A stretch of DNA of 64,000 nucleotides from Hydractinia symbiolongicarpus (lineage: Eukaryota > Cnidaria > Hydrozoa > Anthoathecata > Hydractiniidae), in the NCBI RefSeq assembly GCF_029227915.1, contig NC_079887.1, positions 21,573,650 to 21,637,649 on the forward strand, written 5' to 3'. A model generated the notes under the pieces. It saw only the letters and a list, made by a program, of their open reading frames with translations. It was not told where the DNA came from and ran no database searches. The translations under genes were made by a program, and so were the position numbers. This document shows positions 869 to 38,221 of the stretch, in pieces. How positions within the stretch are numbered: position 1 is the first letter of the stretch; each line of letters begins with the position of its first letter.

Positions 869-1930
869 GATGACACAGAAGTTCCTCATTAATCACGATA
901 GAGCAAGCATTCTCACGACCACTGCTTCTCTAGTCTCAGACTCTCCTCCAGACTTAAAGGCTGGATACTGGAAGGTAGATCAGACAGTAAAGTCAGCAGA
1001 GAGGCAACTCAGGTGCAAGAAAATACTTGGTTTCTACCAGTTTGGTAGAGCAGGTTTGGGACTGGTAAGCCACGTGAGTGTCCCACCAATTGGTACCAAT
1101 TCTTACCGCAAACTTGTATCAGATGTTGTGCAGGACAATGAGGAAGACATCTATTATTCTCGAGCTGTTCAGCTTCATGTCCAAGGTAACTGGACTAAGT
1201 GGTGCTCGTTTATTAAATACGATCTTTCTTGGAAGAACCTACTGTCTCTGATGCAAAGTTTATCTTCGTTTTGAATCGGTGCAACCTATGACACGCTTCC
1301 TTCTCTTACAAACTTTGTCAAGTGGGGAAATCAAAATGAAAAAAGTTGCACCCTATGTAATAAACCCTCTTATAACGTGTCCCACATTTTAGGCGCTTGT
1401 TAATTAGCCCTTTCACAAAGTAGAATCACGTACCGCCACGATACTGTTTATGTGTGTTAGTGACAGCCATTCAGAAGTTCTTATCCGATTATAAGCCAGC
1501 AAAACCATCTAGATGTCATAAAATATCCTTTGTTCCAACTGGTAAACGTCTTGCTACCAAAAAGCGCATAAAAATTCAAGGAATCCTTCACCTGGCCTCT
1601 GATTGGAGGTTATTGTCAGACTTAGATTCAACCTTAATATTACCACCTTATCTTGCTGTAACGCAGCTTCGTCCGGACATACTTTTAACTTCTGCCATGA
1701 CCAAAACTGTAATTATCCTTGAATTATCATGCCCATGCGAAGAAAACATGGACACTTGTCATGGAGTTAAGGTTGATAAATACTCGTCACTTTGTTCCGT
1801 TATGAGATTAAAGAATTGGTCTGTGCAGTTCTTTGATGTTGAAGTAGGAGCTAGGAGTTTTGTTTCGAAACAGTTACAATCTGCCTCCATCGCCTCAGCT
1901 TTTCTAACATATCTGTGCGTTACACTCTGA
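864..1930 (+). pseudogene. Copy A: RT thumb, CCHC knuckle and restriction-like endonuclease
   Basis: The 864-1274 frame contains the GLG and W-T-K-W...LSWKNLL pattern found after the RT domain in RLE-type elements. The next frame reads TYDTLPSLTNFVKWG followed by a CCHC finger, C-X2-C-X8-H-X4-C (CTLCNKP...SHILGAC). The 1454-1930 frame contains LRPDILL...VIILELSCPCEEN, matching the PD-(D/E)XK-like endonuclease at the C-terminus of R2/NeSL-like non-LTR retrotransposons. The role would be target cleavage for target-primed reverse transcription. Frame changes near 1270 and stops near 1400 and 1440 make this copy dead. Family assignment is from remembered motifs. Confidence 0.75.
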
Positions 1931-2690: not shown

Positions 2691-3825
2691 AGAAAATAAT
2701 TTACAAAGAGGTGGCAAGCCACCGCTATGATGAACTCAACCTGTTAGGTCTTTGGAAACAAGCTAGAGGTTGTACTCCTCTAGAGAATATGCCTCTAAAA
2801 GCACAATTCTCCCTTTTTGCAAGGAATTAAAAAAAAAAAAAAATAAAATAAAATAAAAAGGACACAACACATTTGAAAAGATGAACAGAACTTTAACCAA
2901 GGGCAGGTAGGTTTCGACCCATATTTCTGAAACTAAGTACCCTGGATGTCTAGCTGGGTCACCTCGAAAAGGTCCGCGGACGGTCATCAGCAGAAACTAG
3001 ACATCCCTATTTTCCTAAAATTAACTTTGACCACTTTCTGTTCAACTGTGCTATTCTGTGTTTTTAACTCATGTAATAAGTGGAGTCGTTACTCTCCAAA
3101 GACAAGATCATGTGTGATCAAACCCCCCGGCTAATATTTTTTTTTATTTTTTATTTATTTATTTTTCTAACTGGGGTAATAAGTGGAGTCGTCACTCTCC
3201 AAAGACAAGACCTAGTATGATCAAACCCCCTTGCTAACTTAATTTTTATTTGATTTGTTTTATTTTTGACTGGGGTAATAAGTGGAGTCGTCACTCTCCA
3301 CAGACAAGACTGAGTGTAGTCAAGCCCCCCCTTGCTCACTCATTCCAGTTAAAATATTCTTATCTCAGCTCTTCTAAAAAGAAAACATATGACTCGTGAC
3401 TGTTAATAAGGCAGTCATCACAGAAAATTACTGCTCTATCGTTGCAATGTATCCACCTGTGTACCATTTGGTCGAAGGTTATGGTTGTGTAGTGACCATT
3501 ATTTAAGTTGCCGCAATGGTTGATAATAGCCCTTAATTGAAAATTTTTAAGAAATTTCACTTCTCCATCTACGGTTAAAGGTATGGAAAGGGTACCAGGG
3601 TAAGCAGTAATACGAGAGGCAATTTTTGACACAAGGCCGTTGGCACTGGCAAAACGTTTTAGCTGTAAAATGAGATGGGAACCGCACAACACTACCTCTT
3701 TTTCAACTAGAGCAGTTTGATGGGTCTTGTGTCTAATGTTTGTTCTCCTGTCACATCTTCCCCGGCCAACGTTTCTATACCTATCCCTGTAGACAGTGAA
3801 GTCTCTTGTCGCAAGCACTAAAACT
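2691..3825 (-). mobile_element. RLE-USP retrotransposon copy B, 5'-truncated, inserted in copy A
   Basis: On the minus strand this copy holds the USP C-terminal third, about 3722 down to 3360: KEVVLCGSHLILQLKRF, then NHCGNLNNGHYTTITFDQ with the catalytic His in GHY, then WIHCNDR. It continues with three tandem hairpin modules (3335-3060), a long 3' UTR and the 3'-terminal hairpins ending near 2691. It is a close relative of copy D at 25040-26475. Coding homology stops at about 3722, as expected of a 5'-truncated retroinsertion. The bases 3723-3825 are not assigned. It interrupts copy A between its zinc ribbon and His box. Confidence 0.78.
3060..3345 (-). repeat. Three tandem 3'-UTR hairpin modules (copy B)
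   Basis: Read on the minus strand, three modules of about 60 nt recur with a period near 95 bp. Each starts with a G-run (GGGGG-TTGA), then CTTGTCTT, a hairpin (GGAG/CTCC with an ACGA-containing loop), then CTTATTACCCCAG. The G-run and the ACCCC can pair as an outer stem. The short open frames here (for example 3151-3339) are repeat artefacts. Confidence 0.8.
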
Positions 3826-4663: not shown

Positions 4664-6270
4664 CTAACTTCTGGAAAAGAAAAGTATGTATGACGAAGAA
4701 TTATTCAAGTGGAATGTGTCTACTTGAGAAATACAGCGATCGTTGCATTTGAACCAGGTGTTTTGTTGGTCCTTAATGAAGGCCCAGTAATGACCTGCTT
4801 TTAATGTACCTGAGTGGTTAATGGTAGCAACCAAGTTATACTTGTTGTTGAAAGACACATCGTCAGTTGGGTGAGATGCTACCTTTAAGACATGATGTTT
4901 TTTAGGCAAGCAATTGACTAACTTGTTGTCTTTAAAAGAAGACCCATTTACTGATGTGTATCTTAACAATTGTACAACAAGGAAGTCGCCGCAATTAGAA
5001 ATCTGAGTTTCAATTGTGGCCTCTTGATGCGATGAACACTGGGGGCAGAACCACTTGTTGTCACCTAGAAGTTCTTGAGGTTGTAAAAATTTGTTAAAAG
5101 AGTCTGCTATTGACTTACACGTTGGTAAAATTAAAATTGAATCCTTTTGCTCCCTGGAAGTGGAGAAACAACAGGAGTTGCATGACGTTGTTGTGGTCAC
5201 AGTTACAGACAGTAGATTGTCAACCAAAGGGGAAGATCCAATAATTTCGTCAAAAACAACTTGAAGGATCTCGGGCACATCTTGTTGGTGATTGTGATAA
5301 AACGCGTTATTGTTAAGAGCATGCATTCTGTTTTGCAGTGCTCGTAAGAAATTGGAAGGATCAATTGGTGAACGAGAACGATTCAGTAGTGACATATTTA
5401 GGACTATAGACTTTACTAGAGGAGATGACAAAGAGGACTCTGTTGGTAATTGAGACCAAAGTCTTGGAAGAACCGTTAATGCTTGCAAAATGGAGTTTGC
5501 GTAGCATGTGTTCCCCTTGTTTATCAAACCAGCGTGAACGATGCTCACCTTTTGTTTAAGTTCCTGGCTAAGGTTATGGTGTTCCGTGGGTTTTGGCATG
5601 TCAGAGATGGCTGAAGATGGACTTTTATTGGATTTGGTAACAGACGAGGATTTTTCATGAGGTATACTATCCTTTGGTCGTGGCAATGTTGGCGGACTGC
5701 AGTGCGTAAGATCTTGTGACCAATGTGGTGAGTCTCGTGCAATCCAAATGCAAAAGGATGCTTTCATGCTTATATCGCCAAGCTTGCGGGCGGTTAAAAA
5801 CGCAGATTTGCTAGCGAAACCGAGGCTTTTTAGACAGCAAGTTAGAGACCTTGAAGAGTAGCCCCTAGCACCCACTTCTACTGCAAAAAGATGCAGAAAC
5901 CACCCGTTGCTACGTATTACCTCGACCAAAGGGAAGTATTTGGAAAGCTTGGTGGAATGCCAGGATCCCATGTTTTCCTCACAAGGACAAGTAAGTTCAA
6001 TAATGATGATGCGCTTAGAACAATTTGAGTATATTACAATGTCTGGCCTGAGGGATGTGATCGCAATATGGCCAGGAAACACAAATCCTTCATTCAGATC
6101 TGCTAACATCACCCAGTCACTAGCATGGTGGAATAGACCAGTTGGTTTTGATCTTTTAGCGGAGGAATAGCTACCTGCTTTTACAAATGACACTTTAAGG
6201 TGCTTTTTCGTTTCAGGAGCCCGCGAAGCACAGCATCGTGTCGGAAAGTGAACCTTCCTTGTGATAGAGC
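4664..6270 (-). CDS. Restriction-like endonuclease fused to USP deubiquitinase (retrotransposon copy C)
   Basis: A single open frame links two enzymes. Numbering from the first Met of the open frame (6427), the endonuclease core has PD at D129 and ELTCPCEEN at E144, followed by KLSKYFPL and VEVGARGY. A Ser/Pro/Lys linker (about 215-290) leads to a full USP domain: Cys box GLINKGNTCYANSILQAL (C308), HQQDVPEIL, zinc ribbon (CNSCC, CPQC), His box GHYWAFIKD (H546) and CNDR (N562/D563), ending in SSSYILFF. The family hydrolyses ubiquitin isopeptide bonds. Homology starts near 6270. The N-terminal 50 or so codons (6427-6271) merely read antisense through copy A, so the RT is missing and no genuine start is visible: a 5'-truncated insertion. 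The catalytic residues look intact, but expression is doubtful. Confidence 0.85.
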
Positions 6271-6275
6271 AACCT

Positions 6276-6430
6276 TGCATTTGAACAATGGCCATTACAC
6301 TACTGTTGCTTATAACCAAGTGCATGGTAAGTGGTTTCATTGCAACGACAGAGAGGTGGTCCCTTGCAAACAAAGCTTGCTTAATGGTGTACAACCTTAC
6401 ATCCTTTTCCGAGAAGAGCTTAGGCAAATT
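6276..6430 (+). pseudogene. Copy A: USP C-terminus
   Basis: LNNGHYTTVAYNQ, KWFHCNDREVV and YILFREELR are the USP His box, the CND motif and the final strands, ending at LR as in copies B and D. It begins at the 5' junction of copy C and continues the USP remnant at about 3827-3850, so it is the displaced end of copy A. Confidence 0.8.
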
Positions 6431-6454
6431 GCAGCCAGCACCACAACTTCCGGC

Positions 6455-6875
6455 TTATGTAAGCAAGGGGGGTTTGACTATTCTTTTCTTTTTTTTATTT
6501 TCGTTTTTTTCTTCTTTTTTTTGTAGTCTTGTCTTTGGAGAGTGACGACTTCACTTATTACCCCAGTCAAAATAAAAGCAAAAAACAAAAAAAAAATTAC
6601 GCCAGCAAGAGGGTTTGACTGCACCAGGTCCTATCTTTGGAGAGTGACGACTCCACTTATTACCACAGGCACACAAGATTGTACAGAGTAGGACAGATGA
6701 AAAGTTACGGATATAAGAAATGTCTAGTTCCTGCTGAAGACTGTTCGAAGACCTCTTTTGAGGTGACTCAGCTAGATATTTTGGGTACCTTAGTTCAGGA
6801 ATATAAGTCGAAACCCTTGTACCCTTTACAGAAGTCATGTCCTAATCCCTCTGTCTGCTTGTTTGTTCAATTTTT
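6455..6875 (+). repeat. Copy A 3' UTR: two hairpin modules, then the conserved UTR block
   Basis: Two modules (about 6462-6566 and 6605-6670) with GGGGTTTGA...CTTTGGAGAGTGACGAC and TTATTACC. Then comes a block from GGCACACAAGATTG to CAATTTTTG (6665-6875) that is about 90% like 22795-23000. It stops abruptly where another repeat (CGGAG...) begins, so the terminal hairpins of A are missing. Confidence 0.78.
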
Positions 6876-7480: not shown

Positions 7481-7696
7481 TAGATAGATAGATAGATAGA
7501 TGTGCATATTTTACATGGCTAGCCTCACAAATATCGAGGGATATACCCTGTCTATTATTTCCAGGAGGGGCCATGGCTTAGATGGAGAGTCCTAGAGTAT
7601 TTAATGCTCATTTTGAGCGACGCAGACCCAATTAGGGCCTGCGCTCTACTAGACAACTCCCGGCAACATCCAACGGCCCACACAGTGTGCCATCTT
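7481..7696 (-). mobile_element. SINE copy, 3' part, interrupted by the integrase-HECT transposon
   Basis: In reverse complement this matches 19440-19650 at roughly 97%, including the (TCTA)n tail, here (TAGA)n at 7481-7500. It ends with CATCTT (7691-7696), the left copy of the target duplication. The rest of the same SINE resumes at 14083. Confidence 0.9.
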
Positions 7697-8233
7697 TATG
7701 GAACGCCAAGGCTGCCTTATTCGATGATTTCATTCGGTCATAAAACACTATTTGTCGCTAATTGTATTCGATTTTGTTAAAATTCATTCGATTTTGTAAA
7801 AATTCATTCGATTATGCGCTAAATTCATTCGATTATGCGCTAAGTTCATTCGATTATGCGCTGAATTCATTCGATTATGCGATGAATTCATTCGATTATG
7901 CGATGAATTCATTCGATTATGCGATGAATTCATTCGATTATGCGCTGTTTGCATGTGATAAATTATTCGATGCGCTGAATTCATGCGCTAAATTATTCGA
8001 TGCGCTGTTTGCATGCGCTAAATTATTCGATGCGCTGTTTGCATGCGCTAAATTATTCGATGCGCTGTTTGCATGCGCTAAATTATTCGATGCGCTGAAT
8101 TCATGCGCTAAATTATTCGATGCGCTGTTTGCATGCGATAAATTATTCGATGCGCTGTTTGCATGCGCTAAATTATTCGATGCGCTGTTTGCATGCGATA
8201 AATTATTCGATAGTTTTGGCGCCTCAATCAAAA
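7697..8233 (+). repeat. Left terminal inverted repeat (537 bp) made of tandem arrays
   Basis: An 80-bp unique tip is followed by an array of 21-bp units (about 7780-7950, ATTCATTCGATTATGCGCT type) and nine 30-bp units (starting 7952, 7982, ... 8192; CATGCGCTAAATTATTCGAT type). Open frames over it on either strand are repeat artefacts. It ends 22 bp before the integrase ATG, so it probably holds the promoter and 5' UTR. Confidence 0.95.
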
Positions 8234-8254
8234 CTCAAGGATTACAAAATTAAT

Positions 8255-9622
8255 ATGGCTGACGAAAGAACACGAGCTATATTAAAGAAACTTGGATTGA
8301 AACACCTTATTTTGAAGTTTAGTGAAGAAAATATAACCGCTGATTTGATACCAAAGCTTTCTCTAAAGCATTTCGAAAGCTTAGGTGTAACAGATAATGG
8401 AGTTATAATGAACTTGAGGGTAAAATTTTGCAGCTTTGGTGGAATTAAACCACAAAAGTTAAAGTGGGAAAATGGAGGAGCTCCAAAATTCCTAATACCT
8501 GAAGAAGTCCTACAAAACCTACTCAATGACGGCTGTCTTATTTCGGAGATCAGCAATATCTTATGCGTTTCAGAAAGAACAATTTATAGAAGAATGGAAG
8601 AGTATGGGCTTAAAAAGCATAACTTTACAGAAATGTCTAATGAAGAGTGTGATTCAATTCTGAGCACTGTGACTCAAGAGTTTCCTAATTGTGGCGAAGT
8701 TATGTTACGAGAACTGTTAAGGGAACGTGGGATACGAATTCAAAGGCAAGTGCTAAGAGAAAGTTTGCAGAGAATTGATAAAGATGGTATTCAGTTTAGA
8801 AGCAAAAGGAGGCTGCACCGTCGAATCTATAACGTGCAAGGGCCAAACCACTTGTGGCATATAGACACAAACCACAAATTGGTGCGCTGGTATTTTATAA
8901 CTACTGGGATCGTTGATGGGTTTAGCCGGTTACCTGTCGGTTTATTTTGCACCGATAACAATAAATCGGACACTATTCTTCAATGTTTTCAATTCGCAGT
9001 CGGCGAATATGGTCTTCCAAGCAGATTGAGGTGTGACAAAGGGAAGGAAAATGTTCTCGTAGCAGATTACATGCTAGAAAAGCGTGGAACTGACAGGCGA
9101 AGTGTGATAGCAGGTAAAAGTACACACAACCAAAGAGTGGAAAGACTTTGGAGAGACATTTTTAGTGGAGTGTTGTCTTATTTCTATAACCTGTTTTACT
9201 TTATGGAAGACAAAGGTATTTTAGATGCGACAAATGGATTGCATTTGTCTGCATTGCATTATATATATATGCCCCTAATTGTTGCTAAGCTTGAATGGTG
9301 GAGACAAGCATGGTCTACTCACCGATTGAGAACAGTCAACTCTTCTCCCATCAGATTGTGGGTTTCTGGACAGATGACCAATCCTGTGGGTATTGCCCCT
9401 CATGAGGTTGATCAACTTTATGGAGTAGAAGGCTATTTATCCACTGAAGAGGAAGAACCTGAGGAGAATGAGAGACCAATCTTTGTTTTTCATCAGCAGA
9501 TAAGTCAAAATTGTTTTCAAGAGCTTTCAGAAACTATAACGGATGATTCTAAACATGAGAACAGTGGAATTAACAGCTATTTACGGGCTCTGGATATAAT
9601 AGAAAAATATATCCAAGAATAA
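8255..9622 (+). CDS. DDE integrase/transposase with N-terminal SAM-like domain
   Basis: 455 aa, intronless. The ATG at 8255 is chosen because upstream codons lie in the tandem-repeat TIR. Residues 1-62 form a SAM-like helical domain ([15 protein letters not shown]...LGV). At 85-115 there is a helix-turn-helix ([19 protein letters not shown]), then an IS3-like spacer with RESLQRID. The core (about 195-310) shows WHIDTNHK (D204), RCDKGKEN (D261) and HNQRVERLW (E296), a DDE triad with 34 residues between the last two. An acidic tail follows. It would cut and join the element ends in the nucleus. No lesion is visible. The protein family has many members in cnidarians and fish. Partner: the HECT gene downstream on the same strand. 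Confidence 0.95.
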
Positions 9623-10162
9623 TAATCTGACATTGAAAGTTGTGAATTTTGGTGTATTTTGATTGATTTATTTTTTATGAGTAATTTTTTGGATACATTC
9701 TCACTTCGCTTAATGTGAACTGGAAAATTAACTCATCAAAATTAAGTTATGAACTGAGAACCAAGTTCAGAATTTGTTTTGTTTTGAGGGCTCAGAAAGT
9801 TGTCTATGTTACATATATATAATCCATGTAAATAGTATATATATATATTATTTTCTTCTTTACTTTTCTTCTTGTTGAAGAACTATATTAACTGGATTTG
9901 AATTGTTTTTTTGTTATTAACATGGTGTATATATATAAGAGCCTTTATATATGTTGTAAGTTTTATGTTCAAACAAATTCTTCCTGTGGCACCCTGTATC
10001 TTAAAGTAATTTGATTGCATCTTAAATGATTGAAAAGTTCTTTTTAAAATGCATAAAGCTATATTTCTTTAACAAAAAATATTATTATTTAAATTACAGA
10101 TTTCTATGGGGATACTATCATATAATACTGTCTTTCTTCTTTAGCAACAACTAATAGTATAC
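9623..10162 (+). other. Spacer between integrase and HECT genes; possible 5'-UTR 3' splice site
   Basis: AT-rich, non-coding. A pyrimidine tract ending in TTTAG at 10144 lies just upstream of the HECT ATG (10163) and looks like a 3' splice site, so the HECT mRNA may start further upstream, perhaps in the left TIR, and be spliced here. No clear AATAAA was found for the integrase mRNA. Confidence 0.45.
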
Positions 10163-12839
10163 ATGGCTTCTATCGAAAATATTCTTACTGACATAGGTTT
10201 ATTAAACCTTCTCCCCCGATTTAATGAAGAAAAGGTGGATATCAATATTGTTATGGCTGCTACGGATGAGGATCTGAAACGTCTGGGAGTGCAAAGGTTG
10301 GGTGACAGGATCCGTCTTAAGGACATGTGTCGTCAAAAAAATTCTAATAGTAGGGAAGGCCCGTCCAGTAGAATCAGAGAAGAGAGAAGAACACTATTCG
10401 CGCCATATGCAAGACAGACAAATGGAAACTGCAGCAGAAGCAGCAGCAGTAGTAAACCAAATGGTAGATCAAAAAAAGCAAAGAAAAGAACTTGGACAGG
10501 CCAGTTTGTCTGCTTAGCTGACAGAACAAGAACAAAATTACCAACACCTTCAGAAAAGCAAGTGCTACATAATGCTGGCCTTGGTTTAAAAAAGATTTCT
10601 TTTGATATTGATGATGATGAGACTGACGTTTACACCAAATTAATGGCAGATGCACAAAACAAAGAGAATGGAGAAACTGAAGGTTTTCCAACTTTAAAAC
10701 ATTGTGGCGGGTTTGAGTTATTAAAATGTATCCCAAATTGCAGGATCCTTGAACCTTTGAATTGCAAACTAAATTCCATATCTTTGAAAGCTACCATAGG
10801 ACAAGGAAAGATTTATATACGTCCAATTCAAAAGTCGTTGTCGGTAATACCTCTGCAAAAGGCAAGTACAGTAACAACTTCTATCAAAGAAAAATGTTTA
10901 AATTGTTTTGAGGAGTTTTGTCTCGAAGAACTGAGACAACATACTGAGTTATGCATGCCATACTATGAATCTAGTGATGATTCAGAAGTTGCATTACCCC
11001 CTGTGTTATCAAATGAGGTGACCCATGAAGAGGAAAACAATGAAATAACTGAAACTGAATCTGCTTTTCGAATAAGCTATGAGTACATTCCAGAAACAAG
11101 AGATCAAAAGCAGGATAATGCTAATAACAACGAAGAATTTGATCTCAATGCAAACATTAACAACATCATCAGTTATTGCATTGATAATCAAGTGAATTCA
11201 CCAGTCGAGATATTACGGTATATGCAGCAGAAGTTAGTTCAAGGTCGAAGTTTAGAAATAACTGATATTGCGGTTCATGATGACAGACCAACAAATTTTA
11301 TCATGGTTGATCGGGCCAATCTTATTGAAACTGGTTTAGAAGAGATACGGGAACTGCAAAATAAGTTGATTTGTTTATCTGTGCAGTTTTATGGTGAGGT
11401 AGGAAAGAGTATTATTTTTATCTTCATGTTTAATATTAAGATTGTTTTTTTGTTCATCAGTTAATTTGTTTATTTTACCAGACATGTTTGTGTAATCATT
11501 ATATTATATTATTTATCATTTATATTATTATATTTTTAGTTGGCAGAAGATTATGGAGGGCCAAGAAAAGAGTTTTTTCAACAGATAATAAGAGAAATCA
11601 AAGAAAAATACTTTGATTGTGAAATAAACTTGTTTCCTTTAAGTGATTATTATGATATTGGAATAGTTTTTGGTACGTAATTACACTCAGCGTTATACCA
11701 CTGTGAGAAATTGAAAAAAGGAACACAAAAACATTTCTTGTTGTTGTGAGCTTCTTAAAAACTAAAAAAAAATCTAAAAAGATAAATATTCTATGAAAAT
11801 GAGTGTTTATTCTTATTTTTTTAGGCTTGAGTTTGCTTCAGAATGGTCCATTTCCACAGTTTTTGGAAGAAGATGACCTGCAAAAAATATTTTTTAACGA
11901 AGAACCTGGCAAATTCAATGAACTCCGAAGAGCTTTCAAGGATCTTGGAATTTTCCAAGTTTGTATTATATATTTTTGGATGTTTCTCTAAAAGAAGCTT
12001 TTTCTCATAAAGCTTTCTCTTAACATACCGTATTTCCTCTTATCCGTCTGTTTTCTAATACCTAAATTCAGCATTTTAAGGTTTATTAGAGGGGGCGTTA
12101 ATAGAGGAAATACGGTAAGTAAATACATAAGGAAAAGATCTGTTGAGCATTGTATTTACATCTACACTCAATGAGTTTATTTATCATTATAATTAGTTAT
12201 CATTGCTTTCAGATTGTGGAAGCCTTTCCTATCATGCTACACCTTTTCCGACCCAATCCTAATGCTACTTTCACTTTTAAAAAACTGGTCAACTTGCTTC
12301 AGCCAAAATGGGCAGCTGAAGGGTCAAACGAACATTACAGGCAGAAAAAGCTTTATCCGTCATTAATGAAATATTTGAGGCAAGCACATGGTAAGTGTCA
12401 AATTTAAATTTCCACGCGCTCGCTCCGCTTTTCTATAAACTAAATAGCCAAACATTTTTTATTTTGTATGAGCAGAGTTTCACAAAGGAAGCTGGCTTCT
12501 GCTACCTTAAGGGAAGAAATTATGTGCGGAAGAAATATCTATATATAAACTTTCTATTTTTGTTACTGTTTAGGTGGAAAACGTTCGGGTGTTTCGCTTC
12601 CCGATGTACTAAGGTTTGTCACTGGAAGTGAAGAAGAGCCTTTGTTAGGATTTGCACTGGCCCCTTCGATAAAATTTGTTCCGGTGATGGAAGAAGGTCG
12701 ATTTCTTCCGACAAGTAACACTTGCATTAATCAATTGCAATTACCAATGGAAAGTAATGCTATTTCCCTTCCAGACGAAAACGCTCTGTTCGGTTTATAT
12801 GACTTAGCCTTTTCTAGTCGATTTTTTGGACAAATTTAA
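10163..12839 (+). CDS. SAM-UBZ-HECT E3 ubiquitin ligase (five exons)
   Basis: Exons 10163-11398, 11540-11672, 11825-11958, 12213-12390 and 12574-12839. All introns are GT-AG with compatible phases, giving 648 aa. Residues 1-60 are a SAM-like domain (LGV at the end). A Ser/Lys-rich region follows, then C245-X2-C248-X11-H260-X3-C264, the spacing of a Rad18-type UBZ4 ubiquitin-binding finger. An acidic stretch follows, then the HECT domain from about residue 412: YGGPRKEFF, FRPNPNATFTFKKLV, and LPTSNTCINQLQLP with the thioester Cys at C611, 37 residues from the end. HECT enzymes take ubiquitin from an E2 and pass it to substrate. It resembles G2E3-like genes multiplied in fish and cnidarians. 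Its place inside the transposon suggests a role in transposition or in escape from host control; that is inference. Confidence 0.92.
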
Positions 12840-13095
12840 AAGTCGTCGACAGTTTTATTATTTATGCCTATTAGGAACTTAACTCTTGTGATTAAATGCA
12901 AACATTTATGCTTTCTTTCGTTACCTTTTCACTGATTCAAAACTTATTTTATAATTGGTAGTTGTTTACTTGTAAACTTCGTTTTGTTTACGGTGTCCCT
13001 TTCCAAAGGGACACTTAATTTTTGTTTTATTCAGAGAGAATATTTTTTATATTTTAGCTCTTATCGTTTGTATTCATTTTCTTATATTATAGGAG

Positions 13096-13101
13096 AATAA
13101 A
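13096..13101 (+). terminator. Candidate poly(A) signal of the HECT gene
   Basis: AATAAA about 255 bp after the HECT stop codon and before the right TIR. The intervening 12840-13095 is AT-rich with no coding capacity. Confidence 0.5.
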
Positions 13102-13239
13102 TGTTCCGTAGTTTCTTCAGAAATTTTCGATGTACTTTGCAAGATTAGACTGACGCTTAATCGTAACACTATGGTAAAGTGTTCCCGCGAAATTGTTAAT
13201 TTTCTAAGAAATTCAGAGGTTACCATTTTTTAATTTTAA

Positions 13240-13836
13240 TTTTGATTGAGGCGCCAAAACTATCGAATAATTTATCGCATGCAAACAGCGCATCGAATAA
13301 TTTAGCGCATGAATTCAGCGCATCGAATAATTTATCGCATGCAAACAGCGCATCGAATAATTTAGCGCATGAATTCAGCGCATCGAATAATTTAGCGCAT
13401 GCAAACAGCGCATCGAATAATTTAGCGCATGAATTCAGCGCATCGAATAATTTAGCGCATGCAAACAGCGCATCGAATAATTTAGCGCATGCAAACAGCG
13501 CATCGAATAATTTAGCGCATGCAAACAGCGCATCGAATAATTTAGCGCATGAATTCAGCGCATCGAATAATTTATCACATGCAAACAGCGCATAATCGAA
13601 TGAATTCATCGCATAATCGAATGAATTCATCGCATAATCGAATGAATTCATCGCATAATCGAATGAATTCAGCGCATAATCGAATGAACTTAGCGCATAA
13701 TCGAATGAATTTAGCGCATAATCGAATGAATTTTTACAAAATCGAATGAATTTTAACAAAATCGAATACAATTAGCGACAAATAGTGTTTTATGACCGAA
13801 TGAAATCATCGAATAAGGCAGCCTTGGCGTTCCATA
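13240..13836 (-). repeat. Right terminal inverted repeat (597 bp), inner end
   Basis: Reverse complement of the left TIR, essentially identical unit by unit, but with eleven instead of nine 30-bp units; the 60-bp difference accounts exactly for 597 versus 537 bp. It ends at 13836 with ...GCGTTCCATA. Confidence 0.95.
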
Positions 13837-14082
13837 CATAATCGAATGAATTCATCGCATAATCGAATGAATTCATCGCATAATCGAATGAATTCATCGC
13901 ATAATCGAATGAATTCAGCGCATAATCGAATGAACTTAGCGCATAATCGAATGAATTTAGCGCATAATCGAATGAATTTTTACAAAATCGAATGAATTTT
14001 AACAAAATCGAATACAATTAGCGACAAATAGTGTTTTATGACCGAATGAAATCATCGAATAAGGCAGCCTTGGCGTTCCATA
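13837..14082 (-). repeat. 246-bp tandem duplication of the transposon's right end
   Basis: 13591-13836 is repeated directly as 13837-14082, including the 21-bp array and the terminal CCATA. The outer copy abuts the target duplication. Confidence 0.93.
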
Positions 14083-14176
14083 CATCTTCCCAATTTCCCT
14101 CACATGGCTTGGGTTAACCCGGGGCTATGGTAACATTCACTCGCCCATGTTGAATCGCCGTCAAGAGAAATCGAAC
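14083..14176 (-). mobile_element. SINE copy, 5' part (resumes after the transposon)
   Basis: Starts with the second CATCTT (14083-14088) and matches the reverse complement of about 19350-19445, including part of the tRNA-like B-box region (TCGAACT). The tRNA-like head is lost beyond 14176. Confidence 0.85.
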
Positions 14177-25039: not shown

Positions 25040-25806
25040 AAACAACCTCAAAGTTAGGCGAAGCATTTGTAGGTGTTCTTCAAAGTTTGGCTGTTTCTAG
25101 AAGTCCAATTGATCCCTCCCATTGTTTGCGTGCTATGAAACATCATATCTCAGCTGCGAAGGGAAGTGCATTTAATATATTTGCTCAACACGACGTCCCC
25201 GAGGTTCTTGAATATCTCCTACCTGGTCTGTCATTAGACTTCCCATTTCTTGGAAGTCTTTTTAGTATTGGCATCAAGACATCAACCACTTGCAATTCAT
25301 GTCATATTACCAGCTCCTCAGAAGTTATAGCACCATGCATCCAACTTTCTCTGCACCCTACGTTACAATCTTCCTTAGATAATTTCTTTGAAAGCGAGGA
25401 GTTGTCAGACAGCAATGCCTATTTCTGCCATGTTTGTAACGCTCATCAAACTGCTGTAGTTGAAAAAGAGGTAGTGTCGTGCGGTTCCCATCTCATTTTA
25501 CAGCTAAAACGTCTTGCCAGTGCCAACGGCCTTGTGTCAGAAATTGCCTCTCGTATTACTGCTTACCCTGGTACCCTTTCCATACCTTTTACCGTAGTTT
25601 GAGAAGTGAAATTTCGTAAAAAAATTCAATTAAGGGCTATTATTAACCATTGCGGAAACTTAAATAATGGTCACTACACAACCATAGCCTTCGACCAAAT
25701 GGTACACAAGTGGATACATTGCAACGATAGAGCAGTAATTTTCTGTGATGACCGCCTTATTAACAGTCACGAGTCATATGTTTTCTTTTTAGAAGAGCTG
25801 AGATAA
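25040..25806 (+). pseudogene. USP domain of retrotransposon copy D, one in-frame stop
   Basis: SRSPIDPSHCLRAM and FAQHDVPEVLEYL (QQD box, here AQHD), zinc ribbon CNSC...CHVC, LILQLKRLAS, then after an in-frame TGA (25600-25602) NHCGNLNNGHYTTIAFDQ and WIHCNDR, ending at EELR. Copy B reads VDGEVK where D has a 3-nt deletion creating the stop. The Cys box and endonuclease are missing, so the copy is 5'-truncated near 25040. Copies B and D are near-identical inverted relatives. Confidence 0.85.
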
Positions 25807-27524: not shown

Positions 27525-28404
27525 ATACGTCATAATTCTGTATGGTTCACGAGGAACCGTGAATGGAGTACACGGTTAATTTCAGAAAACCTTAGAACTT
27601 TAATGGGCTAAAACAGCCTAAATAATGAAAATTAAGAGTTAATTTTTTTTCAATAGTTTATTTAGATGTTATACAACGTTCTTAATTTTTTTTTAACAAC
27701 ATTTTTTTTTGAATTAGTTTCCCTTTAAAGAATAGTTTTAGGAGCCTAACCCCAGTTTTGACAACCACCGTCCCTGTAGACAAGATACTTCAGTGCAGAT
27801 TGCTGTATTGTAAACCTTTTTCATTAGTAAAACATACAAAGATAAACAAAATTAATGTAAAAATATTAACATTACAGTGCGCAGTACGTTCAACAAACCT
27901 AAGTTTTCCGTTTGTTAGTCAGCTGATACCTTTAGTTAGCTTTTTGAATTTTAGGACAAACACATTAGTTACGCCCCAGGGTAAACATTAATTATTCAAC
28001 AAAATATAAGCAAATATGGTGGCTAGGTTTTGTTTTAAAAAAGCAGTAAAATTTAGAACTTAGGGAATTTGAGATTTTTCTTGGAAATTACGAGTCTGCT
28101 TGGAACACTGGAGAGTGACATAAAAACTAAACGTCTGAAAAAATCAAAGTTCTTACTATTTGTGATTTCAAATCCACTTCAAACATTGTCCTTTATTTTA
28201 TACTTTCAACTTTACTAATTTACTTCTAGCTCTAGTTACCACTTCTTGCTTCACTTCTTGGACTTTTCTTTCTCTGAATTACATTTTGCACTTTTTTAAG
28301 GACGCAAGGACCGTTCTTTTGTTGTTGTTGTCTTCGCTGTCGAGGGATAGCATTTTTGCCAAAACTTTTTTAATCAACTTCTTTTTAAAGTTTTCCTAAC
28401 AATC

Positions 28405-29114
28405 TAGGTCAAGTATTCATATTCAACAAACCGGTTATTGGGCTTGGAGTTAGCGACTCGACAAAGCGGAATTTTTTCGCCTTCCTCGTCCTTTGTGCAC
28501 TTCCATAATAGAGTTATAAATAAAATCATTAATTAGCAAATATAAGGATAAAATAAAAAAACTTTTTTAAAATACTGACATCGCTTATTTTTGGGAAATC
28601 TGAGTATTCTTGCCTGTTCAACGTTGATGTTATGGTCCAATATTGCTAGTTGAGTCCCAGCAATCATCTTCTCTATTCTAAAGTAGGCGGCTTTGGGGAG
28701 GTAACGAATCTTCAGGGCATGAAAAACCTCCAGTAGGGTGGTGTGGATTTGCGCCGTCATTTGCCGTAGATCTTTTACCAACACTGTTTGGTTAATGATT
28801 TTCACCAATTTCTCGTGCACTGCCGAATCCATTACGAGCCACTCTTTGCGAAGTGCTTCTTCTTCTGATAATGTAGAGTGATCGCATTTTTTGTAATATT
28901 TATTTTGTACGCGCACATGCCCGTTGACTGTATGGTGGACTGCTAAAGTAAATGGCTCTGCCAGGTTTTTCGTTAACGATAAAGTTGCGATCGACCGATA
29001 TAAATGGTTCATGATGCACGATGCCCCTCTGGCAAGTGTCTTTAGATCTATAGTGATATACTGGCTTAAGACAGTGCCATTGCCTGTCCATTTCATGTGC
29101 AGAGCTTGAAACAC
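28405..29114 (-). pseudogene. C-terminal part of a transposase-like protein
   Basis: The 193-codon frame (29114-28533) contains DLRQMTAQIHTTLLEVFHAL, YLPKAAYFRIEKMIAGTQLAILDHN, a signature I recall from large multicopy cnidarian and fish proteins that look like transposases (possibly Kolobok-type; uncertain). A downstream frame (about 28500-28405) with SKPNNRFVEYEY resembles the terminal SKPT-RFV-KP motif of the same family and would be a second exon. The N-terminal catalytic part is absent. Confidence 0.55.
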
Positions 29115-31772
29115 TGATTAAAGTAATGTATTGGAGATATAAGGGTTAAAGGGCAGGCAGCGAGGCGGTTTAAGGACAACCATGGATAATAATTATATTG
29201 CTGCGATTTTAAAAAAATAATAATAAAAACTCACTGAAAAGGTAAGCAAAAGCACTCTGCAATAGTAAAACCACAGATTAGCACATGTGATTGTCATTTA
29301 GGACACATAATTGCACTATAAATTTTCTTTCCTCCAGGGAAGATTAGTTACTAAATGGTATTTTGGTAAAAATGCCACATCCATGCCTTTTTTGTTTGTA
29401 TTTTTAACTTGTGTTGATCAAAGAACTTCAAACTTGGGACTGTCCAGTTCATAATAGTTTAAGTTAAGGGGAAAAAATAATGCCGCCGGAGCAGCAGGTT
29501 GTCAACTAAGCCATTTTCTGTTAGGGCGTGAAAACTAAAAATTTGGTTAATATTTTTCTTTCCTATAGAACATCACACCCACGTTCGCAGAAATTTGTGC
29601 TTTTTGATACAAGAAATGGCAAAAAATATTTAAAATAAAATCAAATGGGGCAAATTCTCTAGGTAAAAAGGGGTATAACTGTTATCACTTTAGGCGTTTT
29701 TAATCCTGTTTTTGCAAATTCATATGTAACTGACGATAATAATTGTCTCAACATGGATTAAAATGTCACACTAAATATCGTAGAATTTAGGGCGAATCAA
29801 GTATGCTTCTCCATAGTTTTGATAAAAATCTTGTTTAAAATTGATTTTTCTAAGATTTGTAGAATCCGTCCAGCTTTTAGCGGCAAACTTTGGCAGGCTA
29901 AAAAAGCAAAATCAAGGATTACACGGAATCGCATGTGCCAGCTATACTTATAGACTCACTCTTTTTGCCATATTTCAGTTTTAATAGATGGTGTAACTAC
30001 CGTAAATCAAACTACTGAATAACCTTATATCCGGTGACTTAATTCTTAAGAGATACCCTTTAACCTTAACCTTCACTAATGTTTTTTTTTTTTTTTTTTT
30101 AGAAATTATAGCTAGAACCCTGGGAACTCCACGTTTTACCAACTACGTTACATTGCGCCCACGTTACAAGAAGCTGAAATTCGTAGCTAAAGGAGAAAAG
30201 AACTTTCAAGTGTGATTGGAGTCATGACAGGAAGAACTTCATCTGACTATTATCATCACCAACTTAATTTTTCCTAATAATGTTCGCAATCTCGGCTCGC
30301 TAAATTGCACCGACTAAAATAAATCAGGAAATAAGATCCTGTAATTTTTAAAATAATTCAGGAATCGTAGGAACACGCCCCTAACACTATACAGATAAAT
30401 TCAGTCAAAAAAGGAGCCACAAAAATGTTTCTACTTAACGTTCTGATCAATTTGTTTTGCCCGTATATATAATGATTTTTTTTAATAATCCCACCTTTTA
30501 TTTCAAATACCTTTTACAAAATTTCTACGAGATCAAAGTTTTCACGAAGATTTACATGCGTGTCTTAAATTGTTTTTTAAATTATAGGAACGATCGGACG
30601 TTTTTTTTAACGTTATCTCTAACAATAGGTCTCTCGGTCAAACCGCATCATGCTAAACTCCAAACAGTAAATGCTAAATATGTTTTCAGGTTTCGCTGTG
30701 GTGTGATTCTTTACAGGTCATTGACTATTTAAAAATGTTTCTTTTCTGATTTTACCGTTTTTACATGATGTTTTTACATGCATTAGAGCGAGCGCATTAC
30801 GGCAAGTTAAAAGACACAGGTTGCGTCTGCAAACAATTATTAACATTTTTAAGGCTTAAACTAATTTGGTGGATATGTTAAGGGGTATACAGCAAAAAGT
30901 CAACTAAATTGGTTTAGTATGCTATCACGAAAATATATAGAGAAAAGTACCAGGGTTAAGTAAACAAACAATCACAAATATCAACAAAAATTTGTTTCAC
31001 TTTTTTGTTAGATAAATTATATGAATTAGTATATCGAAGGTTTGTACGATGTTTAAACGAAAGACTAGAAAACGGTGTAACGTAAGATAAATTACTCGGC
31101 ATCGCCCTTTGCAAGTATCAAGAATCAATGTTTTTTAATCAACGATAACATCGTTCATATTTAAGTCTGGTCTGAACTTGTTGAATTGTGTATTTCTCCC
31201 AAATGTTATTATTAATATCGGTTTGCGATAGGCTCTCAATTACTCGTTTGGCTGATATCGCGCCAGCCTTGATTATGTGCGCACATCTTTTTTATTTCTG
31301 GGCTGTATAAGGTATTAAAAACTTTCTGTTTGCCACTTAGGCCGGAGAACATTGTGTATGACATGAGTGAAAATAGAATTTCTGTCATCATCTTTTTGGC
31401 TGGATCCTTTTTCTACATATATCGCGTTTCCTTCTTCGCGATCGCCTTGTCCTAGTAATTCATGGGGAGATTTCTCAGCTTCATTGCTTGAAGCGGCAAC
31501 GTCTCCGTGAACGTCTTCAGAAGTAAAGTATTAGCGACTTTTGCCACACACCTGTTTTTGTGACTTTTGAAAATTTAGTGAAAGTTCGGTACACAGGATT
31601 GATTCCGTAGACGCTATTGTTCCTTTAAAGGCAGCGGTAATTATTTCCACAGCACTTTTTACGCTGCAGAATTCTGTAAGTTTTTTTGGCTGTCACTAGC
31701 AAATGAGCTAGAAGGTCAGCAACGAACATTATCATGCATGTGGCAATTGACTTTATCATGATTCCCTTTGGC
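29115..31772. other. Non-coding DNA within duplication copy 1
   Basis: AT-rich, with a T-run at about 30080-30101 and scattered short open frames (for example 30457-30732) of low-complexity composition. No RNA gene or domain is recognised. 42635-45292 is the same. Confidence 0.45.
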
Positions 31773-31920
31773 GTAGTTTATACGGCCGATTTTATGCCGC
31801 GTCTAACTCAAATATTTAAGTTCGGCACAAGTGCGACACTTAATATATTTTTGGTTTATACACAAAGTAAGTCAAACTAATTGAAGAGATTTTTTTTCTT
31901 TTTCGCAACTAGCAGCAGAG

Positions 31921-33216
31921 ATGCCAGCTCTAAACAGAAGACAACTTCTCAGTATTTGTTTACTTTACTTAAAAAATAGAAGAAAAAAGGTCAGTTTGAT
32001 GAAAGAGGCAATAACTATGTTATTGCATTACGAAGAAAAAAGAAGCATAATTGTTCGTCAATATTTGCTTCATATAGAAGCAATATTATTAATGTTACAA
32101 GAACATGAAGAAATTAAACGCCGAGAAGAAAGGAAAGCACGATCATGTCGAAGATTCTTGCGTAATACTGGATGGTGGGATCCGGTACGAGATACTTATA
32201 GCTCAGAAAGGTTTTACGAAACATTAAGGATGTCTCGCACGACATTCAACTACATTTTAGAACGCATACATGACAAGTTATTGAAAAAAACAGTCACAGA
32301 AGAATTTATAAATTGGCACGTGGTAATTACATTTTCACCATTGGAGAAATGTCTGGATTAGCAAAATCTACTGTTTGTGTAATTGTAAAAGAAACTTGCA
32401 GTGCAATAATAAATACATTGTGGGATGATACAGTTACAAAATACTTCCCAACCTCGAGTGATGACTTTGAAGAAAGCATGGCAAAATTTGGTGAAGAGTG
32501 GCAATTTCCATACGCTTTCGCTGCAGTAGATGGTTCTCATTTACCGATTAAATGTCCAAACGGTGGAGCTCAAGCTATGAAGCAATATTTCAACTTCAAA
32601 GGTTTTTACTCAATTGTGTTAATGGCACTTGTCGATGCTGAATACAGATTTATTTGGGCCTCAGTTGGTGCTCCCGGAAATACCCATGATTCCACATTAA
32701 TGCAATCAACAGAACTTTGGGATCGAATAGTTGCAGGAAAAGTTATTCCCAATATTGTTCAACAAGTTGAAAACGGCCCTTATCTTAGGAGACGGTGCCT
32801 TTCCATTGAGAACGTGGATAATGAAACCACACGGAGATGCAGTACTTCCGCATGACAAGAGGTATTTCAACTATAGACACAGTCGTGCTAGGCTTGTTAC
32901 AGAGGGTGCTTTTGGTAGACTTAAAAGCAGATTTAGAGTTCTCTTCAGAAAATGCGAAAGTAACAAAGAAACAGTGAAACTATGCGGATTAGCTTCTGTT
33001 GTATTACATAACCTATGTATTGAACTTGGAGACCTAGTCCCTAGAAAGTTCGATTTAACTCTAGACCACGCCTCAAACAAACGTTTGAGTCCTGAGGAAG
33101 TTAGAGATGTTCTTGCACTCAGAAACACGAAACAAAAGAATTTCGAAATCAGTAAAAAGTCTGCTTCCGCCGCTCTTACCAAAAGCTTTTGGAAAGAAAA
33201 AGAAGATTCTCAATAA
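31921..33216 (+). pseudogene. Harbinger transposase (HARBI1-like), frameshifted
   Basis: Three frames follow one another: 31921-32340 (N-terminus, GWWDPVRDTYSSERFYETLRMSR), about 32313-32800 (ARGNYIFTIGEMSGLAKSTV, AFAAVDGSHLPIKCP with the first catalytic Asp, GAPGNTHDSTL with the second) and about 32780-33216 (LGDGAFPLRTWIMKP, RARLVTEGAFGRLKSRFRVL with the Glu, VVLHNLCIE). Between the first two, roughly ten codons expected by family alignment are missing (after TVTEE). The second junction at GPYL is a one-base shift. Catalytic residues remain but the protein cannot be made. The same lesions occur in duplication copy 2. Confidence 0.88.
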
Positions 33217-33392
33217 CGCTACATGTAGTTTTCCTTTTTTTTTTTGTTTTTAATTTGTGAAGAAAGTAACAATGAAAACAAACATTTTGTCAAAAAAATT
33301 TTCGTCTTCATGTTCTTAGAAATAAAATATATTATAAAATATAAAATATAAAATCATTATTGTCCACGAGCATTTACCTCACAATCAATTAA

Positions 33393-34534
33393 TCAAGGAT
33401 AATTTGGATCCATCATCTGTGATGTATATGATTCCTGTTGTGTGTTGTCGTGTTGAGCATAACTTAAGGTTGCACTTGTAGGTCGCATGTTTGTCATGCC
33501 ATAGCGATACCCATATTCAGCAGGCGGTTGATTGTTGTTAACATGGGGATATGGTTGATACATAGGCTGAGCGGGAGGCTGTGGTTGTAAAAAATTTGTC
33601 ATTAACTGAAAGAAGGCGTTGTCTCTATCTGACTGTCTCTTGCTCTCTTCTTTTAAAAACTCCAAGATTTCTGTTGATGAATTTTCAGAAGATAGAGTTT
33701 TCAACGATTCAACTGTTTCTTTAATCTCTCCAAGAATATTTTCCGTTTTCATGGACTTTTTACGTACCGTTGGAGTTGGAACATATGATCTCCTCTTTTT
33801 CAAAGAAGAACCCCCAGATGATTCTGATGAATCGGGAGTGGATGAAGTCTCTCCACTGTCTGACTTCTCTGGGTCATCATCAATCTCTGCATCATTTTCG
33901 GTAGAAGAATCGATCTGTGAATGGCCTGGCTCAATGGATTGTTGTGGCTGACAATTATCCATTGAGCTTATCAAAGGGAGCAACTTGCCAAACCAATTTC
34001 CAAGTTCTTTATCTTCTTGGAATCTTTTAATTCCAGAAGCAGTTTTCACTTTCATGACTGCATTTCGGCAAATAGTAACACATCGTTTAAACTTCTGTCG
34101 TGTTTGTTTTACATCAAAAAGAAATTCTTCATTTCGTTCCTCACAGCGTTGTTTGATTTCCTGGATAACTTGGTCGTAGTATTGACTATTTTTCACATTT
34201 TTTACGTTGGTCATTAAAAGTTTCTCTTTGAATTTATCATTCTCGATGATAATGTCGATCAGATCGTCAACTTGGGCCTCAGGCTCTTTTTCAGTTGTTT
34301 TTTATCAAAAATATTCTCGTTGTTATCCTCATCTTCACTTGTATTATGCTCTTCTTCGTACTCATAGTCCTACAAAAAGCAAACGTTGATCGTGCATCAA
34401 AAAACATATATACAAACAAGTAAATAAATTCAATGTTTTCATCTTACATATTTTTCAATTTTATTTAAAGAAACTTGAAAAAAACTTAAAAAAATACTCA
34501 CAAGCTTCTCGTGGTCACCGACGTAGTCAGCCAT
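33393..34534 (-). pseudogene. Harbinger Myb/MADF-like DNA-binding protein, one frameshift
   Basis: Exon 1 34534-34502 (MADYVGDHEKL), intron with GTGAGT/AG, exon 2 from 34369 (acidic DYEYEEEHNTSEDEDNNEN). An A-run near 34303 shifts frame. Beyond it the main frame reads DDLIDIIIENDKFKEKLL, then MTNVKNVKN...FDVKQTRQKFKRCV and TASGIKRFQEDKELGNWFGKLLP, the trihelix/MADF-like domain of Harbinger partners, followed by a Ser/Pro/Gln-rich tail. The partner normally helps import or target the transposase. The A-run could also be a sequencing error. Confidence 0.8.
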
Positions 34535-34835
34535 TTTGAACGAGTGATTTGTTATGCTGAGGTAGCACTTTTTGATCAGATAACAATGGGATTTGGTGTT
34601 TTTTTTACACGACAAAAACAATGCCTTGCATAAAACAGGCCGAAGATCGACTGTATAAACCGATGCCGAACTTTTGCCTAACCTAAGTGGAAAGTTTGGC
34701 AAAATTTGATAGACTTAAATATTGAGGTCGACCTTAATAAAATGTTCAGTTTATACAGCCGCACTTTTGCCGAACTTAAATCATTTTTAAATTTTTTTGA
34801 GTTAGACGCGGCATAAAATCGGCCGTATAAACTAC

Positions 34836-36457
34836 GTCTTTGGGGAATTCGTGGTCATTATAAACGCCGAGCGGGTCCAGATCAAGTTGGTCTGCTTACT
34901 AACAGCGTCAAACTCAGTAGCTTTCCCTGCCCATGACACAAAGACTTCGGGAGATACAACAAACTCATTTTTTGTTATGGGAGGCAAACAACTGCAGGAT
35001 CTTGATGTACCTTCGATTTATGGTCTGTAAATTTTATCAGGATGTTTTCTTTTTTATCGTCCTTCTTTCTATTTTTATATTCCCAAAGGGTTAAATTCTA
35101 TGCGCGTTCTGTAAAAAGATGCAAATGCAGGTTATTAAATAATCTCGTACACAGGTATACTCTGACATTGATGCAATGTGACCGTCTAAAACCCAATAGC
35201 TTAACAACATTTCTGAGATCCTCGAACTCGAACATTACCCATATATGGGGGAAATGGGGAGATCCATTTGCTTTTCCTCCCTTTCCCCTGTCTTTAAAGA
35301 CTAGTTATATCTGCGATGTAGTTACTCCTATTCTCTTTTCCTGTTTCTTACACAGATCCAGATGACTGCTAGGAAAGACTGTTTGACATTGGGCTAGACT
35401 AGTGACTGTGGGAAAGACCACTGACGGTGGGAAAGACCATAGATTGTGAAGGCTTTTTGTTTTTGGTGACTGAAGAGTGTGTGTTCTTCATTGGTTAGGA
35501 TGGGTCTTCAATTGCAATCTCGAACGATTGATAACTCCTTCCAAAGAATGGAGCGTGGCAGATTTCGAACGATAAAAGTTGACTGGGTGGTGAAGTGAAT
35601 TACTTGTTTAAGTTCGAGACGGTACGCAATGGTTTTCTGGGTTGCCGCCGCTGGGTTCCAAGTCTACCTTTCTAAGCGGCGGTTTCTTGGTCAGCCCAAG
35701 CATTACGATACGATTTCTCAAGTGTTCATTCATGTCTAAGGTCAGAAACCTTTTTTGTTTCCAGGTTTGCTGCTTTTCATTCTTTGCCACAACCTTTCTA
35801 AGGGCTGGGTTCCAAGTCTATCTTTCTTAGCCCTGGGCTCTCTGTCAGTAGGTAAAATCAACAACGATACGAATTGTAGTTGTCGACTCTTTTTTTCCAA
35901 CGTTTAACAGTTATTGGTTTTGGCGGATGGTGTCAATGAATGTGCCTGGTGTCTTGCAGGAGGCAGGGGATGCTTACTCAAGGGCCCGCACCAGATCCCA
36001 AGCATGATTGAATTTCCCAATCTTCATGTTTATTTCAGTACATCCGAAATCCATTAGCTTTTCGATCATCCCTGTAAAGGGGAGAATAGAGAAGTTTTCC
36101 AGTGGTTTCTTATTCTTTGGAGAGAAACCTCCTTTTTTTTCATTAACATCTCTATCTTAAAAGGCTAGTTATATCTGCATTGCGATGTAGTTACTCCTAT
36201 TCTATTTATTGCATGCTTTTCTATTTGTGCAAGAGAAGTGTGGTTGTGATGATATCATCCATGGTCAATCCTGAAAAACATAACCCATCAGATGTTGCAA
36301 ATTCCACAAATGAAATAAGTGAAGACATATATAGTGCTTTGAACTAGCAGTTCTTCGAACTTTGCAATGCACAAAGAATTCGTCTCGGACTTGGTTTTTA
36401 TTGAGAAGATTAACAAAATTATTGAAGATATTATTTGGGTTTGTCTGTTCAGTATTC
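34836..36457. other. Non-coding DNA with internal repeats
   Basis: GACTAGTTATATCTGCGATG with GTAGTTACTCCTATTC (about 35296-35330) recurs near 36160-36205. GGGTTCCAAGTCTACCTTTCT (35652) recurs at 35811. No protein domain is seen. Confidence 0.5.
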
Positions 36458-36504
36458 ATATTACTGTGGAAAGTTTATCATTTCTTGAACATGATAGTTT
36501 AGTA

Positions 36505-36541
36505 GGCGACGTTTCAGGAGATCCTTCTCCCATCATCGGGC
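36505..36541 (-). ncRNA. Hammerhead-like ribozyme core (left arm)
   Basis: Minus strand: CCGATGA, helix II GGAGA-AGGA-TCTCC, then TGAAACGTC. The core matches C-U-G-A-N-G-A ... G-A-A-A except that U4 is C. Helix III could only be AC/GT. The same strand as the retroelement. Activity is doubtful. Confidence 0.45.
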
Positions 36542-36646
36542 AAAGTAAAATGATGTTGAGCATGTATTTATATAATTGCAGAGGATCGAAATTCATAAAA
36601 ATTAACCAATCAGAAACGAGCTAATAATTACAGTTAATTACGGTAT

Positions 36647-38030: not shown

Positions 38031-38137
38031 TGCAGTACCTTAACTTCGAATCAAACAGCTCGTTTCTGATTGATTAATTTTTATGAATTTTGATCCTCTG
38101 CAATTATATAAATACATTCTCAACATCATTTTACTTT

Positions 38138-38174
38138 GCCCGATGATGGGAGAAGGATCTCTCGAAACGTCGCC
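38138..38174 (+). ncRNA. Hammerhead-like ribozyme core (right arm)
   Basis: Plus strand: CCGATGA, GGGAGA-AGGA-TCTC, then CGAAACGTC. Same U4-to-C change as in the left arm, with the opposite orientation. Confidence 0.45.
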
Positions 38175-38221
38175 TGCTAAACTATCATGTTCAAGAAATG
38201 ATAAACTTTCCACAGTAATAT

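Follow-up and report, generated by a model that had tools for sequence, protein, structure and literature searches.

A putative IS3EU-type transposon of Hydractinia symbiolongicarpus that codes for a DDE transposase and a HECT-type protein, both with SAM-like N-termini

Does a gene for a HECT-type protein that lies inside a DNA transposon belong to that transposon, and what might it do there? The question is raised by a stretch of 64,000 nucleotides from the hydrozoan Hydractinia symbiolongicarpus (NC_079887.1, positions 21,573,650 to 21,637,649 of the forward strand; the window hereafter), in which an initial annotation had described positions 7697-14082 as a complete transposon pairing a DDE integrase with a HECT ubiquitin ligase. 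We favour the reading that this is an autonomous cut-and-paste transposon of IS3EU type with two genes of its own, one coding for a transposase of SAM-helix-turn-helix (HTH)-DDE architecture and the other for a SAM-HECT protein; this appears reasonably likely, the functions being those suggested by the sequences. That the HECT gene is an inherited gene of the transposon family rather than a one-off capture seems probable, judging from the architecture of one copy.

The borders of the element fall exactly where they had been annotated. In this one copy, CATCTT forms perfect 6-bp direct repeats directly outside the terminal inverted repeats (TIRs), and both genes lie between the TIRs on the forward strand, again as annotated. 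The terminal features are as follows.

7691-7696: left target-site duplication (TSD), CATCTT
7697-14082: the element (6,386 bp), which opens with TATGGAACGCC and closes with GGCGTTCCATA
7697-8238: left TIR, made up of the terminal TATGGAACGCC, 21-bp repeats, a 30-bp array and the inner TTTTGGCGCC edge
7766-7944: 21-bp repeats of the left TIR
7940-8211: 30-bp array of the left TIR, with nine full repeats
13235-13836: right TIR, inner complete copy, with eleven full 30-bp repeats
13837-14082: second, tandem copy of the outermost 246 bp on the right, terminating in CCATA
14083-14088: right TSD, CATCTT

Of the 515 positions compared between the left TIR (7697-8211) and the inner right copy (13322-13836), 511 are identical; the four mismatches fall at 8138-8161 within the inner 30-bp repeat array. 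The outer part of the left TIR (7697-7942) is identical to the outermost 246 bp on the right (246/246). The left TIR pairs with two right copies because the right end is tandemly duplicated, the 246-bp duplicate being perfect. In the inward orientation, the motif ATTCGAT is found 19 times within the left 558 bp, and the 1,243 bp that lead up to the right end contain 31 copies; elsewhere, in the remaining 57,600 bases, it occurs 3 and 4 times in the two orientations. The junction of the right-TIR tandem duplicate (13591-14085) carries CAT, which is the first half of the TSD, and a template switch after insertion may have produced it. We also note that TTTTGGCGCC, found once in each TIR at its inner edge (8214-8223 on the forward strand and 13250-13259 on the reverse strand), has its sole two occurrences in the window at these places. 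It contains an E2F-like site (consensus TTTSSCGC); such sites occur five times in the whole window, and this one might link expression to S phase.

The first gene of the element codes for the integrase.

8255-9622 (+): DDE integrase/transposase gene, one exon, 455 aa; SAM-like domain (about residues 8-48), HTH-like region and rva_4 core (residues 191-376)

Its reading frame is free of stops, whereas the two remaining forward frames contain 34 and 39, and a stop-free frame of this length would be expected by chance with a probability of about 3e-16 at this composition. In Pfam, the protein matches rva_4 (PF24764) with 243.5 bits and an E-value of 1.9e-72, and rve (PF00665) with an E-value of 6.2e-7 at 30 bits, which is under the cut-off of 32.6. 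The catalytic triad can be assigned by motif to D204 (WHID), D261 (CDKG) and E296 (QRVERLW), with 56 residues between the two aspartates and 34 between D261 and E296, in agreement with the annotation of an intact integrase with a full DDE triad. Upstream of the core, a scan of the fragment gave HTH_29 with an E-value of 0.00085, below cut-off; no zinc-finger match was obtained in this region in the Pfam scans, which reported only sub-threshold HTH-like matches.

These properties place the element among known transposons. The termini TATGG..CCATA, the 6-bp TSD and an IS3/IS481-type DDE domain without an HHCC motif are all IS3EU features. According to published descriptions, TA..TA termini are invariable in IS3EU families, the TSD is usually of 6 bp and an HHCC motif is absent (PMC10045372; this and the other cited works are drawn on in excerpt). 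Among fungal IS3EU elements, those bearing TET genes end in TAYGG..CCRTA in rusts and carry genes for a TET dioxygenase and an alpha-kinase (PMC12730594), and for the Zymoseptoria element Styx a likely origin from a two-protein IS3EU element has been described (PMC10853768). The carrier is very probably a member of the IS3EU superfamily, whose transposases presumably match rva_4.

The second gene follows the integrase gene on the same strand, with the features below.

9956-10144 (+): candidate 5'-untranslated region (UTR) intron of the HECT gene, with a GTAAGT donor and a TCTTTCTTCTTTAG acceptor, recognized by simple patterns only
10163-12839 (+): HECT gene, five predicted exons, 648 aa
10163-11398 (+): exon 1, SAM-like domain (residues 4-53) and start of the HECT N-lobe
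11540-11672 (+): exon 2, LAEDYGGPRKEFF, N-lobe entry
11825-11958 (+): exon 3
12027-12116: palindromic insert of 90 bp resembling a miniature inverted-repeat transposable element (MITE), with TA on both flanks, inside intron 3
12213-12390 (+): exon 4
12574-12839 (+): exon 5, C-lobe, LPTSNTCINQLQLP with C611, C-terminus FGQI and stop
13096-13101 (+): AATAAA 3' of the gene

The splice sites were predicted from the sequence without a transcript, and the spliced product is an uninterrupted protein of 648 aa. All four predicted introns (11399-11539, 11673-11824, 11959-12212 and 12391-12573) are GT-AG introns of 141-254 bp. Exon 1 contains a possible C2HC zinc finger, below the Pfam cut-off, and exon 3, as placed by eye, probably spans the site at which about 90 N-lobe residues are absent. 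The interval between the two genes contains a single donor of GTAAGT type (9956) and an acceptor, rich in pyrimidines, that ends at 10144, just 5' of the HECT ATG. From the integrase stop to this ATG, a pattern scan found neither AATAAA nor ATTAAA in forward orientation; 3' of the HECT gene, an ATTAAA is present at 12891. These intergenic signals would fit the predicted 5'-UTR intron, the HECT transcript being either its own or common with the integrase. For the MITE-like insert, no clear second copy was seen in the window, where the best other blastn match has an E-value of 0.63.

Both proteins begin with a SAM-like region, a similarity called from N-terminal fragments with scores near the Pfam gathering cut-off of 23. 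When the first 75 aa of the HECT protein serve as the query, SAM_1 is matched over residues 4-53 with 27.3 bits (23.0 with exon 1 and 22.3 with the whole protein as the query); the first 72 aa of the integrase give 22.3 bits over residues 8-48. Against the PDB, the HECT N-terminus finds the SAM domain of ANKS3 first (E-value 3.2e-5; 9.4e-4 when the whole HECT protein is the query), followed by those of ANKS6 and BICC1, the matches ranging from 3e-5 to 5e-4. The integrase N-terminus is weakly similar to the tankyrase SAM domain (E-value 0.05 for the fragment and 0.71 for the whole protein), and the two N-termini align with each other with an E-value of 0.009 in a two-sequence comparison. The SAM domains of tankyrase, ANKS3, ANKS6 and BICC1 form polymers or heteromers. 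Since a SAM-like start is common to both proteins, it would be an economical mechanism for the HECT protein to be tethered to the integrase in this way, and we put forward such a SAM tether as a tentative proposal, somewhat less than likely.

The catalytic end of the HECT domain is retained. Pfam reports PF00632 with 35.9 bits and an E-value of 8.7e-9 (cut-off 23.9), with only residues 571-619 aligned. C611 lies in NTC, within LPTSNTCINQLQLP, and fits the C-lobe pattern LPxxxTCxNxLxLP; the protein terminates in FGQI, with Phe fourth from the C-terminus, and a Phe at this position is required in active HECT ligases. In phmmer searches against the PDB, the HECT protein aligns with AREL1 (PDB identifier 6jx5) and E6AP (PDB identifier 1c4z), with whole-sequence E-values of 1e-7 and 7.4e-5, respectively. 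Each alignment consists of two separated stretches: one covers the N-lobe entry, around GELAEDYGGPRKEFF, and the other the C-lobe, including LPTSNTCINQLQLP and C611. Measured between the alignment ends, the two stretches are 136 residues apart as compared with 229 in AREL1, and 128 as compared with 215 in E6AP. The usual HECT domain has about 350 residues and an N-lobe that includes an E2-binding subdomain. Thus, of the annotated intact five-exon HECT protein, the reading frame (under the predicted splicing) and C611 in NTC stand, whereas a full-length fold does not, the N-lobe being short.

If the two proteins act together, the following course of events can be envisaged. The transposase would bind the 21- and 30-bp subterminal repeats, excise the element and insert it elsewhere, leaving a 6-bp TSD. 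The HECT protein would use SAM-SAM contacts to dock on either the transposase or itself and, once docked, would act by ubiquitin transfer on proteins at the transposon ends. Its likeliest targets would be the transposase left on the DNA after strand transfer or host silencing proteins; chromatin proteins and host repressors at the ends can also be considered. A more specific version of this scheme, in which the matched SAM domains co-assemble the transposase and a miniature HECT protein on the repeat arrays and ubiquitylation is a built-in step of transposition, strikes us as unlikely on present evidence. The ubiquitylated protein would then be the transposase, a host repressor or chromatin at the ends, and the HECT domain would work without its usual E2-binding part.

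Searches for relatives of the element covered the window and several sequence collections. Elsewhere in the 64 kb, the integrase reaches a best tblastn E-value of 0.13 and the HECT protein one of 5.0, while the element DNA has two 24-bp matches only; given such weak matches, the window holds no second copy. In viral contigs, protein-guided pattern scans for the HECT protein, the integrase and HECT exon 1 returned 2, 18 and 1 stretches, respectively, none of which was a relative by tblastn, and four DNA patterns returned none. A back-translated motif found two matches in genome contigs, both in bacterial metagenome-assembled genomes; these were taken as chance (tblastn E-value of 0.026 over 10 residues for the integrase and 1.4 for the HECT protein). 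Phage records gave no match to the integrase.

Several observations weigh against the reading of the element as a transposon with a working HECT enzyme of its own. Its HECT N-lobe is 93 residues shorter than that of AREL1 and 87 shorter than that of E6AP, the N-lobe stretches taken alone align weakly (E-values of 0.81 with AREL1 and 0.43 with E6AP), and the 234 aa before the C-lobe, taken alone, match no Pfam family at E-values up to 10. The E2-binding subdomain may be lacking, and an E2 may go unbound. The SAM scores of the whole proteins are below cut-off (18 for the integrase and 22.3 for the HECT protein). AlphaFold models of the N-termini, each built from a single sequence, are too poor for the fold to be read, with a mean predicted local distance difference test score of 42.3 for the integrase and 53.6 for the HECT protein. 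Finally, a single copy was seen, and inheritance by the transposon family is no more than probable.

One alternative is that the HECT protein belongs to the element and is inactive as a ligase, perhaps binding ubiquitin or ubiquitylated partners or blocking a host ligase, a role that would be compatible with relief from silencing. The E2-binding subdomain of E6AP presumably falls in the interval that is shortened here, and this HECT domain may therefore lack its E2-binding part; the 87-93 residues missing relative to AREL1 and E6AP correspond roughly, as we assume, to that subdomain in both size and place, and the N-lobe part alone is without a Pfam match. However, the catalytic Cys, the motif surrounding it and the Phe at -4 are all retained, which would be unexpected in a long-dead enzyme; we regard inactivity as a credible possibility that falls short of being probable. 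Since the domain is short by 87-93 residues near the E2 site, ligase activity is not assured; we place real ubiquitin-ligase activity close to an even call, with a slight leaning towards doubt. Thus, the identification of the HECT protein as an E3 ligase keeps its C611 motif and PF00632 match, while the term ligase is weakened by a domain about 90 residues short.

The HECT gene could also serve to lift host silencing, acting away from the transpososome as the accessory genes of other eukaryotic transposons do. There is a parallel in some fungal IS3EU elements, whose TET dioxygenase has been proposed to aid escape from silencing, as far as the excerpted account goes (PMC12730594). The sequence names no substrate for such an activity, however, and a SAM-like domain common to both proteins speaks rather for a partner encoded by the element itself; we find this explanation rather unlikely, if worth retaining.

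If, instead, an IS3EU copy had taken up a host SAM-HECT gene only once, the gene would be a passenger without a role in transposition. The four predicted introns of the HECT gene, set against none in the transposase coding frame, are what a genomic capture predicts, only a single copy is known, and the TET genes of fungi have seemingly been passed passively between transposon families, according to the excerpted text (PMC12730594). Yet the HECT frame is intact, a SAM-like N-terminus is found on both proteins, no borders of a captured stretch can be made out and the HECT gene occupies most of the interior of the element, which makes such a capture improbable. The assignment of the HECT gene to the element, as made in the initial annotation, is favoured by its enclosure within TIRs and TSD, its intact frame, its strand and the SAM-like N-termini of both proteins. 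That a host HECT gene merely lies between unrelated repeats is wholly improbable, with no point found in its support; in this copy, both genes are enclosed by TIRs that match at 99-100% and are immediately flanked by a 6-bp TSD, which refutes it.

The window holds other repeated sequences as well. A head-to-tail duplication of 13.5 kb (27743-41257 and 41263-54774; 99.93% identical) is either very recent or an artefact of assembly. Its first copy has a DDE_Tnp_4 open reading frame at 32313-32855, which we take to be Harbinger-like, and a near-identical one lies at 45833-46375 in the second. A repeated gene for a ubiquitin C-terminal hydrolase of USP type is seen at 4664-6427 on the reverse strand (longest copy; E-value 9.8e-34), with pieces at 3360-3818 (-), 6200-6526 (+) and 25087-25602 (+), the last recognized by eye only. 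An LRPDI..IELTCPCEEN stretch precedes the USP-type domain and recurs at 1454-1930 (+), also by eye only. The repeated USP-type gene probably belongs to another mobile element.

The transpososomes that such integrases form are very stable and are dismantled by host machinery. If the favoured reading of a two-gene IS3EU element holds, a ligase of the element's own, with a docking domain matched to the transposase, would make transpososome disassembly directly testable. It would also be a conjugating counterpart to the deconjugating OTU and Ulp1 domains of Ginger transposons and a possible source of the multicopy HECT genes in animal genomes. Should the gene be only a passenger, it would still be gene content that we did not find described for IS3EU, and would counsel caution, since a part of the annotated HECT ligases may be encoded by transposons. 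By its sequence, the carrier appears to be of a known kind in which extra genes have precedents, and we did not find HECT described as the second gene. No report of an IS3EU element with a HECT gene was found in the literature; Repbase reports lay outside this search, and such an element may be recorded there. Likewise, no description of a HECT gene paired with a DNA-transposon transposase was found in the literature searched, the broadest searches being seen in part only.

Among known systems, the closest is IS3EU (with GingerRoot), which shares the TA..TA termini, the 6-bp TSD and an IS3/IS481-like DDE core without an HHCC zinc match. Additional genes, such as those for the fungal TET dioxygenase and alpha-kinase, occur in some of its members (PMC12730594). 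The element studied here differs in its SAM-HECT second gene, in TIRs of more than 500 bp built of 21- and 30-bp repeats and in the SAM-like domain of its transposase, none of which is described for IS3EU in the portions of the literature examined. Ginger1 elements of Hydra and other animals are likewise integrase-type DNA transposons with ubiquitin- or SUMO-pathway domains, their transposases carrying OTU or Ulp1, and the ubiquitin pathway has been proposed to take part in their transposition (PMC2836005). In Ginger1, however, these domains deconjugate and are located C-terminally in the transposase, and the TSD is of 4 bp (PMC2836005, PMC10045372), whereas here a HECT domain of conjugating type is encoded by a separate gene and the TSD is of 6 bp. 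An identity with Ginger1 was rejected, as the element matches neither its 4-bp TSD nor its zinc finger. AREL1 and E6AP resemble the HECT protein in an N-lobe entry like GGPRxE(F/W)F, in the C-lobe LPTxxTCxNxLxLP and, as we assume, in the Phe at -4; they differ in that the protein here has about 90 fewer residues between the matched ends and an N-terminal SAM-like domain. G2E3, which we take to be of HECT type, and the G2E3-like genes of fishes presumably share with the protein here a short, diverged HECT domain with a similar C-lobe. They differ in that Pfam reports no PHD- or RING-type finger for the HECT protein here. A blastx match to the ubiquitin ligase G2E3 is listed among unclassified candidate repeats of Cottus fish, in the excerpt consulted (PMC5638112), and this match fits the notion of HECT genes riding on repeats.

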